NCBI GenBank assembly: GCA_945865815.1
Contig: CAMBFR010000001.1
Span: 1-64,000, forward strand
Direction: 5' to 3'
DNA length: 64,000 nucleotides
From: Candidatus Sulfopaludibacter sp. SbA3
GTDB lineage: Bacteria > Acidobacteriota > Terriglobia > 20CM-2-55-15
The first letter of the stretch is position 1; every line of letters begins with the position of its first letter. Shown here in pieces: positions 10,400 to 15,658 of this stretch. The translations under genes and the position numbers were made by a program. The notes under the pieces were generated by a model. It was not told the DNA's origin and did no database searches. It was given only the letters and a program-made list of their open reading frames with translations.

Positions 10400-13036
10400 T
10401 CATTGTCCGCGCTGAATCAGCCGGATTGCATCTAGGCGGAGCCGCGCGTTCGTCAGGTGTTCGTCCAGCGCATGGCGCTGCGTGGCCAGCAACTCGATTT
10501 CCTCATTCCGAACACTGCGATTCACTTTCTGTAGTTCCGCCAGGCGCGTCATTTCGTGTGCAAGCTGCGCGGTCATTTCCTTGCGAGCCAAGGCGACGAT
10601 GCCCTTCGCATGGCCACCCGCAATGCTCTCCGCCTTTTCGAGAAGAAACGGAAGCAGGTCCTCGCGCAATTCCGGTTTCTCCAACAGCGCGTGCGGGTCA
10701 GCGATTTGCAAACATCGCGCCAGCATTTCAGGAGTGATGGAACTGCCGGCATCACTACCTTGATGATCCACCAGCACACGCAGCGGAGTCGGCGGCAGAA
10801 ACCGGTCCACATGGAGATGTGGCGGAGCGACGCATTCAAGCAGGTAGATCGCTTCCACGTATATGCCGGCAACCCGGGTATCCGGCCAGTGGGCGAAGCT
10901 GCTGTTCCCTTTCTCGGACCCTAACAGAAGATCGAGCGCTCCGGTAACGAGTGGATGGTCCCAGGTCAGGAACTGAAGATCCTCGCGGGCAAGCGCCCGC
11001 TGCCGGTCGCAGGTGACTGTGAATCCCCCGGAAGGCAGGCCCGGAAAGGAATCCACGAGCACTCCGGCCGAGCCCAGCCTATACGTCCGTTGCGCCACCT
11101 CTTCGACAGCAAGCATGTAGTGATCGAAGACCGAAAGCATGAACGCTTCCAGGGACGCATCCGCATCCTGGCTTCGAATCTCATCGCCGAGCCTCGCGGC
11201 GGCCTCCGGGCGAAATGAATTCAGCTCGAGCAGTCGATCCCGGCCCTCGTGCAGTCGTGCCGCTATCTCGCTGTAAGCCTCTTGTGTCTCCTGAATCAGG
11301 TGATCCAGCCCGGCTTCACCCGGATTCTGCGCGAGGCCGTACACTCGCGCGCCAAACCGCTCGAGCAGTTCGTTACCGCCCTGCAGGTTTCTCTCAAACG
11401 CGCCCAGTCCTTCCTGATACCAGCGCGCCAGAACTTCCTGTCCGGTGCCTGCGATGAAAGGCACATGCACCTGGATTTCAGAAGTCTGCCCGATCCGGTC
11501 GAGCCGGCCGATTCGCTGTTCAAGCAGTTCCGGATCGAGCGGAAGATCGAATAGAACCAGGTGGTGGGCAAACTGAAAGTTGCGGCCTTCACTGCCTATT
11601 TCCGAACAGACCAGAAGCTGCGCTCCGTGATCCTCCGCAAACCACGCCGCGTTGCGGTCTCGCTGCACCAGCGAGAGCCCCTCGTGAAAGACGGCGATCC
11701 GTACATTCTTGATTCGTCGTCGAAGAGCGGTGTCGATGGCCGCGACCTTGGCCTGGGTGCGGCAGATCAAGAGCACCTTGGCCGGATCCAGAGTCCGCAA
11801 CAGGCCGGCGAGCCACTCGATCAGTGGAGTCTCCGAAGGATGCGCGGCCAATGGATGCATTCGCACAACGCGTTTCGGGAAATGCCCGATAGTCGCGCGC
11901 GTGTTTCGAAAGCTCACCCGGCCTGGCCCGTGCTGGTCGAGCAGGGCGTCAAGCTCTTCGATGTCGTGTAAATTCCCGGCGCGGCGCGCAACGTCGCGGT
12001 ATTGATCCACTTCGTTGATGAATTCGCCAAGGTCGTAAAAGCGATCCGGATCCAGCAGGCGCAGGCGCGCGAAGTGGCCGGCAATGCCGAGTTGCTCCGG
12101 AGTCGCCGTCAGGAGTAGAAGCCCCGCAGTCTGCCTGCCAAGGGCTTCGACCAGCGCGTATTCCGGGCTGACGTTCTCCGGTGACCATCCCAGATGATGG
12201 GCTTCGTCGACCACGAGGATGTCCCATCCGGCCTCCAGCGCCTGACGGGTCCTCTGTTCGCCGGCGCTCAACAACCCGATGCTGCAAAGCACGAATTGAT
12301 CTTCAAGGAATGGATTGTCTTCCGGATTGACGGCTTCGATGGATTCGCATCGCTCCTCATCGTAGATGTGGAACCAGAGGTTAAAGCGGCGCAGCAATTC
12401 CACGAACCACTGATGCACCAGCGATTCCGGCACGAGGATCAATACACGCTGCGCACGGCCCGTAAGGATCAGCCGATGAAGAATCAAACATGCTTCGATG
12501 GTCTTCCCGAGCCCGACTTCGTCGGCGAGCAGGACGCGCGGGGCCAGCCGTGCCGTCACTTCGGACGCGATATAGAGCTGGTGTGGAATAAGATCGATCC
12601 GGCCACCCACAAATCCCCGGACCCTGGATTTACGCCGCCGGTGCTGATGCGTGAGCGCGGTCACTCTCAGATCGAAAACTTCCGGCGGATCCATTTGTCC
12701 GGCAAACAAGCGCTCTTCGGGCTCGTTGAAACTGATCGCATCGCTGAGCTCGGTTTCACACAGTTCCTGTCCACCGAAACCATAAAAAAGGAGTCCGTTT
12801 CGTTCGGTGACCGACTGGACGATCAGAGGAGTGTGGTCGTTCCTCTTGATTGTGTCGCCGACGCGAAAGTGCACCCGGCGAAGCGGCGCATTGGCGCGGG
12901 CGTACTCCCGCTTCTCGCCACTGACCTTGAATACGGCCGTGACCGTTCGATCGGTAACGCGCAGGATCGAACCCAACCCGAGTTCGGGCTCACTCTCGCT
13001 GATCCATCGCTGACCCGGATGAAAGTCGCTTCGCAT
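10400..13036 (-). CDS. rapA: RapA-like SNF2/SWI2 helicase
   Basis: RapA is a Swi2/Snf2 ATPase that binds RNA polymerase and helps recycle it after transcription. The N-terminus (about 1-110) has the tandem beta-barrel region. The helicase core has motif I ADEVGLGKTIEA (from 171), DEAH (277-280), SLVHQWFVELLRRF, and motif VI blocks QRIGRLDRIGQ. A long RapA-type C-terminal part follows to residue 878, compared with about 968 in E. coli. The identity as a RapA-family protein is good. The RNA polymerase role is inferred from enterobacteria. TAGACT lies six bases upstream of ATG and there is no Shine-Dalgarno sequence. It converges on argG. Confidence 0.88.
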   Translation of the reverse strand: MRSDFHPGQRWISESEPELGLGSILRVTDRTVTAVFKVSGEKREYARANAPLRRVHFRVGDTIKRNDHTPLIVQSVTERNGLLFYGFGGQELCETELSDAISFNEPEERLFAGQMDPPEVFDLRVTALTHQHRRRKSRVRGFVGGRIDLIPHQLYIASEVTARLAPRVLLADEVGLGKTIEACLILHRLILTGRAQRVLILVPESLVHQWFVELLRRFNLWFHIYDEERCESIEAVNPEDNPFLEDQFVLCSIGLLSAGEQRTRQALEAGWDILVVDEAHHLGWSPENVSPEYALVEALGRQTAGLLLLTATPEQLGIAGHFARLRLLDPDRFYDLGEFINEVDQYRDVARRAGNLHDIEELDALLDQHGPGRVSFRNTRATIGHFPKRVVRMHPLAAHPSETPLIEWLAGLLRTLDPAKVLLICRTQAKVAAIDTALRRRIKNVRIAVFHEGLSLVQRDRNAAWFAEDHGAQLLVCSEIGSEGRNFQFAHHLVLFDLPLDPELLEQRIGRLDRIGQTSEIQVHVPFIAGTGQEVLARWYQEGLGAFERNLQGGNELLERFGARVYGLAQNPGEAGLDHLIQETQEAYSEIAARLHEGRDRLLELNSFRPEAAARLGDEIRSQDADASLEAFMLSVFDHYMLAVEEVAQRTYRLGSAGVLVDSFPGLPSGGFTVTCDRQRALAREDLQFLTWDHPLVTGALDLLLGSEKGNSSFAHWPDTRVAGIYVEAIYLLECVAPPHLHVDRFLPPTPLRVLVDHQGSDAGSSITPEMLARCLQIADPHALLEKPELREDLLPFLLEKAESIAGGHAKGIVALARKEMTAQLAHEMTRLAELQKVNRSVRNEEIELLATQRHALDEHLTNARLRLDAIRLIQRGQ

Positions 13037-13484: not shown

Positions 13485-14930
13485 ATGTTATCTTTCTCGC
13501 GCATGGACGTTCTAAAAAAGCTCTTCGAGGAGCATTTCCACATGCCGGCCGAGCGGGTGCAGCCGCTGCAGGGTCAGCTTGGCGGCTCCGGACGTAACAT
13601 CGTCCGGCTCTCAAGCGAAAGCCGCAGCGCGATCGGCATCATCTACCCTGTGCGTGAAGAGAACGTCGCATTTATAGAGTTTTCACGGCATTTTCGAAAA
13701 CACGGGCTGCCTGTGCCGGAAATTTACGGGGAAGATCTGAGCCACGGCGCTTACCTGGAAGAGGATCTCGGGAACACGACGCTTTTCGAGTTCCTGTCGG
13801 ACAATCGTGCCGGCGAAAACGTCGCTCCACAGGTGATCGAGGCCTATAGCAAGGTTGTCGCGGTATTGCCGCGGTTTCAGATCGAAGCGGGCCGCGATTT
13901 GAATTACAAGGTCTGCTATCCGCGCGACAGCTTCGATCGCCAGTCGATTGCCTGGGATCTGAATTACTTCAAGTACTATTTCCTCAGGCTCGCCGGCGTC
14001 GCCTTCAACGAGCAGGCGCTCGAAGATGATTTTGTTCGTTTGACTGATTTCCTGCTGACCGCCAACCGCGATTATTTTCTCTATCGCGATTTTCAGTCAC
14101 GCAACGTGATGCTGCGAGATGGCCAGCCATTCTTCGTGGATTACCAGGGCGGACGAAAAGGCGCGCTGCAGTATGACATCGCTTCCTTGTTGTACGATGC
14201 CAAGGCCGACCTGCCTCCCGGCCTCCGCCAGCAATTGCTCGATCAATACATCGACACCATCGGCGAGATGGCCGCGATCAAACGCCCGGCGTTCATGGAG
14301 CACTACTACGCCTATGTCTACGTCCGCATCATGCAGGCGATGGGCGCATATGGCTTTCGGGGCTTCTATGAGCGCAAGCCTCATTTTCTGCAGAGCGTCC
14401 CGTACGCCCTGAAGAACCTGCGGTGGCTGCTTCATCATGCCGAGCTGCCGATCGCGCTGCCGGCCCTGGTCAGCGCGTTCAAGAGCATGGTGGGCTCCGG
14501 GAAGTTGCAGGGCCTGGCTTCCGAAACAGGAAACATGACGGTTCGGATTTTCAGTTTTTCATATCACCGCGGCCTGCCGAAGGACGAGACCGGCAACGGC
14601 GGCGGCTTCGTGTTCGATTGCCGGGCGCTGCCTAATCCGGGCCGGGAGGAGCGCTACAAGGATTTAACGGGCAAGGACGAGCCGGTAATGGATTACCTCA
14701 ATCAGCAGGAGAGCCTGCATCAGTTGTTTTCCAATGTCATGTCGCTCGTGGATGCAAGCGTGAGCACGTACCAGCGCCGCGGCTTCAAGAATCTGATGGT
14801 GTCGTTCGGCTGCACCGGTGGACAGCATCGTTCCGTATATCTGGCGGAACAGTTAGCGAAATATCTGGGCGGCAGAAGCGGTGTCGAAGTCGTGGTGCGG
14901 CATCTCGGGCTGGAAGCCCTCGGCAAATGA
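13485..14930 (+). CDS. APH-fold sugar kinase fused to a RapZ C-terminal domain
   Basis: Two domains are joined. Residues about 8-320 are an aminoglycoside-phosphotransferase-fold kinase, with Asp202 and Asn207 in YRDFQSRN and metal Asp219 in FVDYQGG. The catalytic-loop His of the classic HxD motif is Tyr. The nearest functional match is AmgK, the anomeric MurNAc/GlcNAc kinase. Residues about 352-481 are the RapZ C-terminal domain (FVFDCRALPNP, GCTGGQHRSVY 442-452), which in E. coli senses glucosamine-6-phosphate. The RapZ N-terminal ATPase domain is absent. AGGAG lies eight bases upstream of ATG 13485. The ATGA overlap with the MurU-like gene supports a cell-wall sugar salvage role, which is inferred. 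Confidence 0.87.
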   Translation: MLSFSRMDVLKKLFEEHFHMPAERVQPLQGQLGGSGRNIVRLSSESRSAIGIIYPVREENVAFIEFSRHFRKHGLPVPEIYGEDLSHGAYLEEDLGNTTLFEFLSDNRAGENVAPQVIEAYSKVVAVLPRFQIEAGRDLNYKVCYPRDSFDRQSIAWDLNYFKYYFLRLAGVAFNEQALEDDFVRLTDFLLTANRDYFLYRDFQSRNVMLRDGQPFFVDYQGGRKGALQYDIASLLYDAKADLPPGLRQQLLDQYIDTIGEMAAIKRPAFMEHYYAYVYVRIMQAMGAYGFRGFYERKPHFLQSVPYALKNLRWLLHHAELPIALPALVSAFKSMVGSGKLQGLASETGNMTVRIFSFSYHRGLPKDETGNGGGFVFDCRALPNPGREERYKDLTGKDEPVMDYLNQQESLHQLFSNVMSLVDASVSTYQRRGFKNLMVSFGCTGGQHRSVYLAEQLAKYLGGRSGVEVVVRHLGLEALGK

Positions 14931-15658
14931 AGGCGATGATTTTGGCAGCCGGGCTTGGCACGCGGTTGCGGCCGCTTACCGACAATCGTCCTAAAGCATT
15001 GGTGGAAATAGCCGGCCGTACGATGCTGGAGATTACGCTCGCGCGGCTCCGCGCCGTTGGGGTCGGCGACGTGATCGTGAACGTGCATCACTTTGCCGAC
15101 ATGGTTGTTGATTACCTGAAGGCGAACGACAACTTCGGCATGCATGTCGAAGTTTCTCGCGAAGAGGTCCTGCTCGACACCGGCGGCGGCTTGAAGAAAG
15201 CCGGCTGGTTTTTTAGCGGCGGCGATGAACCGTTCATCCTGCACAACGTCGATGTCATCAGCACGATTGACCTCCAGCGGATGGTCCAATTTCATACGGA
15301 CAATCAGTGCCTGGCAACGTTGGCGATGCAGCAGCGGAAGACCTCCCGCTACCTGCTGTTCGACGAGCAGCAACGGCTTTGCGGACGGCAGGCGGGGCCC
15401 GGCCGGCAACCTGAGCTTGTTCGATCGCCGCAGCATACCGAGGCGCTGGCTTTTTCGGGCATCCACGTTATTTCTCCCAGCCTTCTTCCGATGCTGACTG
15501 AAGATGGAGTCTTCTCGATCATTTCTGCATACTTGCGCCTCGCCGCCCGAGGAGAAAAGATTCTCGCCTTTCGAGCTGACGAATATTATTGGCGGGACCT
15601 CGGCAAGCCGGAAAATGTGACGCAGGCTGCCGAGGATTTGCGAGGTAAGGCCCTTTGA
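14927..15658 (+). CDS. MurU-like sugar-1-phosphate nucleotidyltransferase
   Basis: This is a single-domain nucleotidyltransferase of 243 residues with the signature LAAGLGTRLRP (6-16) and the following PKALVEIAGR. HNVDVIS marks the metal-binding aspartate region. MurU and related mannose-1-phosphate guanylyltransferases have this size and lack the C-terminal beta-helix acyltransferase domain of GlmU. It overlaps the kinase/RapZ-C gene by four bases. AmgK and MurU act in sequence to make UDP-MurNAc during peptidoglycan recycling in Pseudomonas, and the pair here has the same order. The substrate is not proven. Confidence 0.82.
   Translation: MKAMILAAGLGTRLRPLTDNRPKALVEIAGRTMLEITLARLRAVGVGDVIVNVHHFADMVVDYLKANDNFGMHVEVSREEVLLDTGGGLKKAGWFFSGGDEPFILHNVDVISTIDLQRMVQFHTDNQCLATLAMQQRKTSRYLLFDEQQRLCGRQAGPGRQPELVRSPQHTEALAFSGIHVISPSLLPMLTEDGVFSIISAYLRLAARGEKILAFRADEYYWRDLGKPENVTQAAEDLRGKAL

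Follow-up and report, generated by a model that had tools for sequence, protein, structure and literature searches.

An APH-fold sugar kinase joined to the C-terminal domain of RapZ (RapZ-C) is encoded, immediately ahead of a MurU-like nucleotidyltransferase, in the window analysed here (a stretch of 64,000 nucleotides from Candidatus Sulfopaludibacter sp. SbA3, Acidobacteriota). This domain combination is real and widespread, and it is undescribed in the literature searched, where nothing was found on RapZ joined with AmgK, MurU or a phosphotransferase domain. The module probably represents the AmgK-MurU salvage route in a new form, and our preferred explanation, which we place just short of probable, is that its two genes would convert muramic-acid sugar phosphates into UDP-MurNAc, with RapZ-C acting as a putative sugar-6-phosphate phosphatase that stands in for MupP. 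From the architecture, the conservation, the gene order, the gene fission, the co-occurrence and the local identity of the loop with the RapZ pocket in published data, all of which are observed, we infer both catalytic activities, the substrate and the order of use.

Both domains lie in one open reading frame (Table 1). Pfam places the APH domain at residues 55-264 (E 7e-14) and RapZ-C at residues 351-474 (E 3e-35), in both cases above the cut-off, and finds no RapZ N-terminal P-loop (Walker) ATPase domain in the 481-residue protein, the APH kinase domain being in its place. The AlphaFold2 model of the whole fusion has a mean pLDDT of 91.6 and, in a fold search, matches the APH kinase 3csv (TMt 0.77) as well as RapZ structures, while the RapZ-C part modelled alone (pLDDT 94.2) agrees with the E. 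coli domain (5o5s) at TM 0.83/0.91. The sequence-only reading had described this kinase (D202, N207, D219) as fused to a RapZ-C with the stretch GCTGGQHRSVY, with the RapZ ATPase domain missing and a four-base overlap with the next gene; on all these points it is borne out. The source genome, a 4.34 Mb draft that is about 98% complete, also encodes a separate canonical RapZ. A gene for a complete RapA/HepA-type RNA-polymerase recycling helicase lies at positions 10400-13036 of the window, and its transcription runs divergently from that of the fusion.

Table 1. Features of the fusion gene and of the adjoining transferase gene (positions in the window).
Feature	Position	Strand	Description and basis
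Kinase-RapZ_C fusion gene	13485..14930	+	481 aa; ORF list, Pfam; AGGAG 8 nt before ATG 13485
APH-fold sugar kinase domain, AmgK-like	13485..14504	+	Residues ~1-340; Pfam APH; NCBIfam AmgK below cut-off; fold match 3csv
Kinase catalytic core	14088..14141	+	D202, N207 (RDFQSRN), D219 (DYQGG); conserved in all aligned members except one gap/masked residue
RapZ C-terminal domain	14535..14906	+	Residues 351-474; PF22740 E 3e-35; TM 0.83/0.91 to 5o5s
Class-specific glycine loop G-x-G-G-G	14592..14606	+	Residues 370-374; in 81-82 of 82 fusions/splits
N-P-G-R	14634..14645	+	Residues 384-387; G386 82/82, R/K387 82/82
CX5RS phosphate-binding/phosphatase-type loop	14811..14834	+	C443-T-G-G-Q-H-R449-S450; alignment of 82
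MurU-like sugar-1-phosphate nucleotidyltransferase	14927..15658	+	243 aa; overlaps fusion by ATGA; Pfam, NCBIfam

Chance does not account for the fusion, as hundreds of genomes share its architecture. A scan covering 84,980 species genomes returned at least 576 relatives, the best 80 of which belong to six or more phyla, including Acidobacteriota, Elusimicrobia, Calditrichota, Ignavibacteria, Neomarinimicrobiota and Bacteroidota. Within 61 related genomes about one third have the fusion, in most of them with the same transferase adjoining and the same four-base overlap; in the survey of transferase neighbours that had been proposed from the sequence alone, the transferase motif lies downstream in 70 of 78 complete loci. 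For the Bacteroidota, Calditrichota, Ignavibacteria and Neomarinimicrobiota genomes examined, the fusion type is the sole RapZ-C. The AmgK/MurU route has been described for the AmgK of Tannerella forsythia, whose family-mate Parabacteroides distasonis has the fusion. NCBI gives the label 'RNase adapter RapZ' to the fusions of 476 residues from P. distasonis (WP_005858754.1) and Bacteroides finegoldii (WP_237923178.1), at L230:4986-6416 and L232:4986-6416, although these are without the RapZ ATPase domain. A phage-borne RapZ-C was also found, as the 'nucleotide-binding protein' of the cyanophage Microcystis phage MaAM05 (MW495066.1, 261221-261637), which aligns with fusion residues 339-481 at 35% identity (E 1e-16).

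The kinase shows the APH fold with the catalytic Asp/Asn/Asp, in the model and in the alignment. AmgK is its best and sole NCBIfam kinase match, yet the scores stay below the curated cut-offs (50.8 of 500 bits for NF045698 and 48.1 of 550 for NF045759), and the kinases of fusion relatives tested across several phyla behave alike, with the AmgK models as top match at about 50 of 500 bits. The 243-residue protein, a nucleotidyltransferase according to Pfam, has MurU as its best match among the sugar-1-phosphate transferases and also misses the curated cut-offs (127.9 of 250 bits for NF045761, 118.9 of 370 for NF045697). Across loci the fusion-linked transferases reach 114-146 of 250 bits with MurU, whose models lead by 25-65 bits in most of the loci tested, and control transferases from elsewhere fit mannose-1-P guanylyltransferase (man1P_GTase) better than MurU. 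The MurU profile alone was rejected as an identifier of MurU, since mannose-1-P transferases also score about 120-138 bits. The MurU/AmgK-type pairing suggested earlier stands as far as the best-matching models go, and falls well below the curated cut-offs.

Such scores would also fit a module that salvages or activates another sugar (GlcNAc, for instance) to an NDP-sugar, the MurU/AmgK label then holding at superfamily level; AmgK is itself named as a MurNAc/GlcNAc kinase, and apart from the transferase there is mostly no conservation among the genes around the fusion. We consider this distinctly unlikely, given that the MurU and AmgK models are still the top matches across several phyla, that the classical AmgK-like pairs of the same survey adjoin NamZ, a MurNAc-releasing enzyme, and that there is an association with AnmK/MurQ (see below) as well as a muramic-acid gene context in one genome (G060, locus L159), where murQ and murA are both divergent neighbours of the fusion. 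In a few other acidobacteria murQ lies divergently upstream of it (L040 and L055, by N-terminal sequence).

The RapZ-C domain was aligned over 82 members, both fused and split, and compared with ten canonical RapZ proteins and with E. coli RapZ. Its CX5RS loop is close to invariant (Cys443, Thr444, Gly445, Gly446 and Arg449 in 82/82, His448 and Ser450 in 81/82) and has the CX5R[ST] form of the cysteine-dependent (PTP-type) phosphatases. In E. coli RapZ, the CTGGxHRS-type loop is a sulfate/malonate pocket (PMC5737377), the C247S exchange inactivates the protein, and crystals with GlcN6P contained density for what is 'likely a chemically transformed product' (PMC9841335); the resemblance to a tyrosine-phosphatase loop was pointed out by Khan and Gorke, who proposed hydrolysis for RapZ (PMC7199280). 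The phosphatase idea for RapZ itself is thus theirs and not new, and no paper in the literature searched was found to extend it to this fusion and to MurNAc-6-P. The fold is that of RapZ: a PDB fold search with the RapZ-C model returned no tyrosine phosphatase, the sole matches at E < 0.001 being RapZ, so that a PTP fold was rejected. Identity with MupP (HAD phosphatase, NF009696) was also discarded, since the domain has the RapZ-C fold and not the HAD fold or motif, and it could be a functional replacement at most.

Compared with the RNase adapter RapZ, the fusion has the C-terminal fold and the GCTGGxHRS loop and lacks both the pocket His190 and the RNA-contacting residues. In the alignment, Gly386 takes the position of His190 (from the GlcN6P pocket of E. 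coli RapZ) in all 82 members and is followed by Arg/Lys, and the G-x-G-G-G loop is present in none of the ten canonical RapZ nor in E. coli RapZ. Among the E. coli residues that contact GlmZ RNA, R238 is replaced by Phe in 81/82 members and K251 by Gln in 72/82. These replacements, together with the invariant pocket loop, make it highly improbable that RapZ-C serves solely for oligomerisation or RNA binding and has no small-molecule role, as might be suggested by the dimer formation and RNA binding of the E. coli domain and by the invariance of D378, which is equivalent to Asp182, needed for self-interaction in E. coli RapZ.

The main rival to the phosphatase reading is an allosteric sensor, in which RapZ-C would bind an amino-sugar 6-phosphate (MurNAc-6-P or GlcN-6-P) and act as an on/off switch of the kinase, so that salvage is balanced against breakdown or de novo synthesis. 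It is through this domain that E. coli RapZ senses glucosamine-6-phosphate. Regulation is often built by fusion to an enzyme, and the distribution with MurNAc-6-P metabolism described below fits a sensor too. The sequence-only reading was of this type (amino-sugar level gating kinase activity), and we no longer regard it as the best one, considering the loss of His190, the near-invariant cysteine, which is unexpected for a plain sensor, and the fate of the domain after gene fission. Three adjacent genes in the order kinase (338-343 aa), RapZ-C (133-135 aa) and transferase are found in G116 and in the related pair G180/G097, and these split lineages are nested among the fusions in two places of a FastTree tree of the kinase domains (the sole kinship check, in which the row of G104 is empty). 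With RapZ-C encoded by itself in two lineages, regulation in cis is not required; the domain thus functions as a polypeptide in its own right, in keeping with a subunit or with an enzymatic step of its own, and the persistence of free-standing RapZ-C genes argues against a sensor. Fusion-type kinases (RDFQSRN, DYQGGR) were also found without RapZ-C and with the transferase still adjoining, in L178 (G094) and at L162:3850-5681 (G002), the latter kinase being nested in the acidobacterial fusions of the same tree. Both retain the catalytic residues, which again counts against a switch, and we consider the sensor rather unlikely, as second choice to the phosphatase. The CX5RS core and the distribution with MurNAc-6-P metabolism point to catalysis upstream of the kinase at least as strongly as they do to a sensor.

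As for this distribution, all 34 genomes carrying RapZ-C have AnmK, MurQ or a BadF-type kinase, and none of these three was found in the genomes G002 and G094, where the fusion-type kinase is without RapZ-C. AnmK and/or MurQ accompany 20/20 intact fusions of the acidobacterial relatives. In a sample of 118 Bacteroidota genomes, RapZ-C occurs in 14, all with the kinase; among these, AnmK or MurQ is present in 11, and the remaining three encode BadF-type kinases (130-144 bits). Five genomes of the sample are AnmK+ MurQ-, and all five are among the 14 with kinase and RapZ-C (hypergeometric 1e-5 against 14/118 overall, uncorrected for kinship). Cells of this kind need a MurNAc-6-P phosphatase, if MurNAc is recycled. 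A scan for MupP among 30 HAD-2 proteins, taken from G050 and from four of these five genomes, gave no score at the cut-off; the top one, with 101 of 359 bits, scores higher as phosphoglycolate phosphatase. A simple association of AnmK with RapZ-C was looked for and not found in Bacteroidota overall (10/14 versus 80/118, with MurQ in 83/118), the pattern becoming visible after adding MurQ, the BadF kinases and RapZ-C loss; three acidobacterial AnmK+ MurQ- genomes are without the fusion. Made post hoc on related genomes, the counts suggest that RapZ-C follows MurNAc-6-P metabolism, with kinship keeping the effective sample small, so that they give a direction and not a corrected significance.

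The genome family to which the window belongs lacks AnmK (0/11), and the source of MurNAc-6-P would therefore be another kinase; the window's own genome does encode one of BadF type. MurQ, also encoded there, acts on MurNAc-6-P, which makes MurNAc-6-P metabolism likely. In the murQ-nagA-murA cluster of this genome (L158:2157-5456), genes for muramic-acid breakdown are coupled with that for the enzyme that starts UDP-MurNAc synthesis. A further 26 kinase-only genomes were rejected as independent RapZ-C losses, since their kinases are classical AmgK-like (RDFH, DFQDA), lie beside NamZ and look like one clade, and just G002 and G094 were therefore counted. A two-gene pair of AmgK-like kinase and transferase (312-319 aa), mostly followed by a NamZ exo-muramidase gene, is found at L179-L193; these genomes (1.8-3.0 Mb, in the Bacteroidota sample, without AnmK and MurQ) are probably one clade, Chlorobia-like in our estimation, with direct MurNAc salvage.

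In the Pseudomonas route, MurNAc-6-P is converted to MurNAc by the HAD phosphatase MupP, MurNAc to MurNAc-1-P by AmgK and the latter to UDP-MurNAc by MurU (PMC5371407). Under the phosphatase reading, RapZ-C, kinase and transferase would map onto these three steps: RapZ-C would hydrolyse a sugar-6-phosphate, preferably MurNAc-6-P, through Cys443 as nucleophile and Arg449 of the CX5RS loop, doing the job of the unrelated MupP; the kinase part would phosphorylate the freed MurNAc at C1 (the AmgK step); and the adjoining transferase would make UDP-MurNAc (the MurU step). A single fused protein would in this way move the phosphate from C6 to C1, taking MurNAc-6-P to MurNAc-1-P. Several points count against a phosphatase: the fold is not of the PTP type, and no general acid was identified for the putative RapZ-C enzyme; the CTGGxHRS loop is invariant in canonical RapZ too, a protein accepted to act in sensing and RNA presentation; and AnmK is lacking from the window's genome family, as is the fusion from the three acidobacterial AnmK+ MurQ- genomes. 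The co-occurrence pattern would fit a MurNAc-6-P sensor as well, and it is chemistry that separates the two readings. A broader proposal, which we regard as possible and still doubtful, is that RapZ-C was ancestrally a cysteine-dependent sugar-6-phosphate phosphatase, which in the fusions acts in series with a C1 kinase to move the phosphate of MurNAc from C6 to C1, the enterobacterial RapZ sensor being a repurposed, slowly turning-over form. If true, the phosphatase reading would provide cell-wall recycling in Bacteroidota, Acidobacteriota and other phyla with its missing MurNAc-6-P phosphatase, would correct the 'RNase adapter RapZ' label of the gut Bacteroidales fusions, and would make RapZ-C chemistry on GlcN-6-P directly testable, the free-standing version of 133-135 residues being a simple protein.

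Four known systems can be set beside the module. Like AmgK-MurU-MupP of Pseudomonas, it encodes an anomeric-kinase-like enzyme together with a MurU-like transferase and is linked to MurNAc-6-P metabolism; unlike that route, it has RapZ-C fused to or beside the kinase, no MupP in the genomes checked, and sequences far from curated AmgK and MurU. The AmgK-like APH kinase 3csv of Silicibacter has the fold and the catalytic residues in common with the fusion kinase, and differs in lacking a RapZ-C domain and in sequence (about 20% identity). With the cysteine-dependent phosphatases (CX5R[ST]), RapZ-C has the loop signature in common, phosphate/sulfate binding being published for RapZ, whereas the folds differ. 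Finally, E. coli RapZ (5o5s) and the fusion have in common the C-terminal fold, the C-T-G-G-x-H-R-S loop and the equivalents of D176, D182, R184 and H276; in the fusion, by contrast, the Walker ATPase domain is absent, His190 is Gly, a G-x-G-G-G loop is added and the RNA-contact residues are lost, and the genome that carries it, unlike the E. coli system, holds a separate canonical RapZ.
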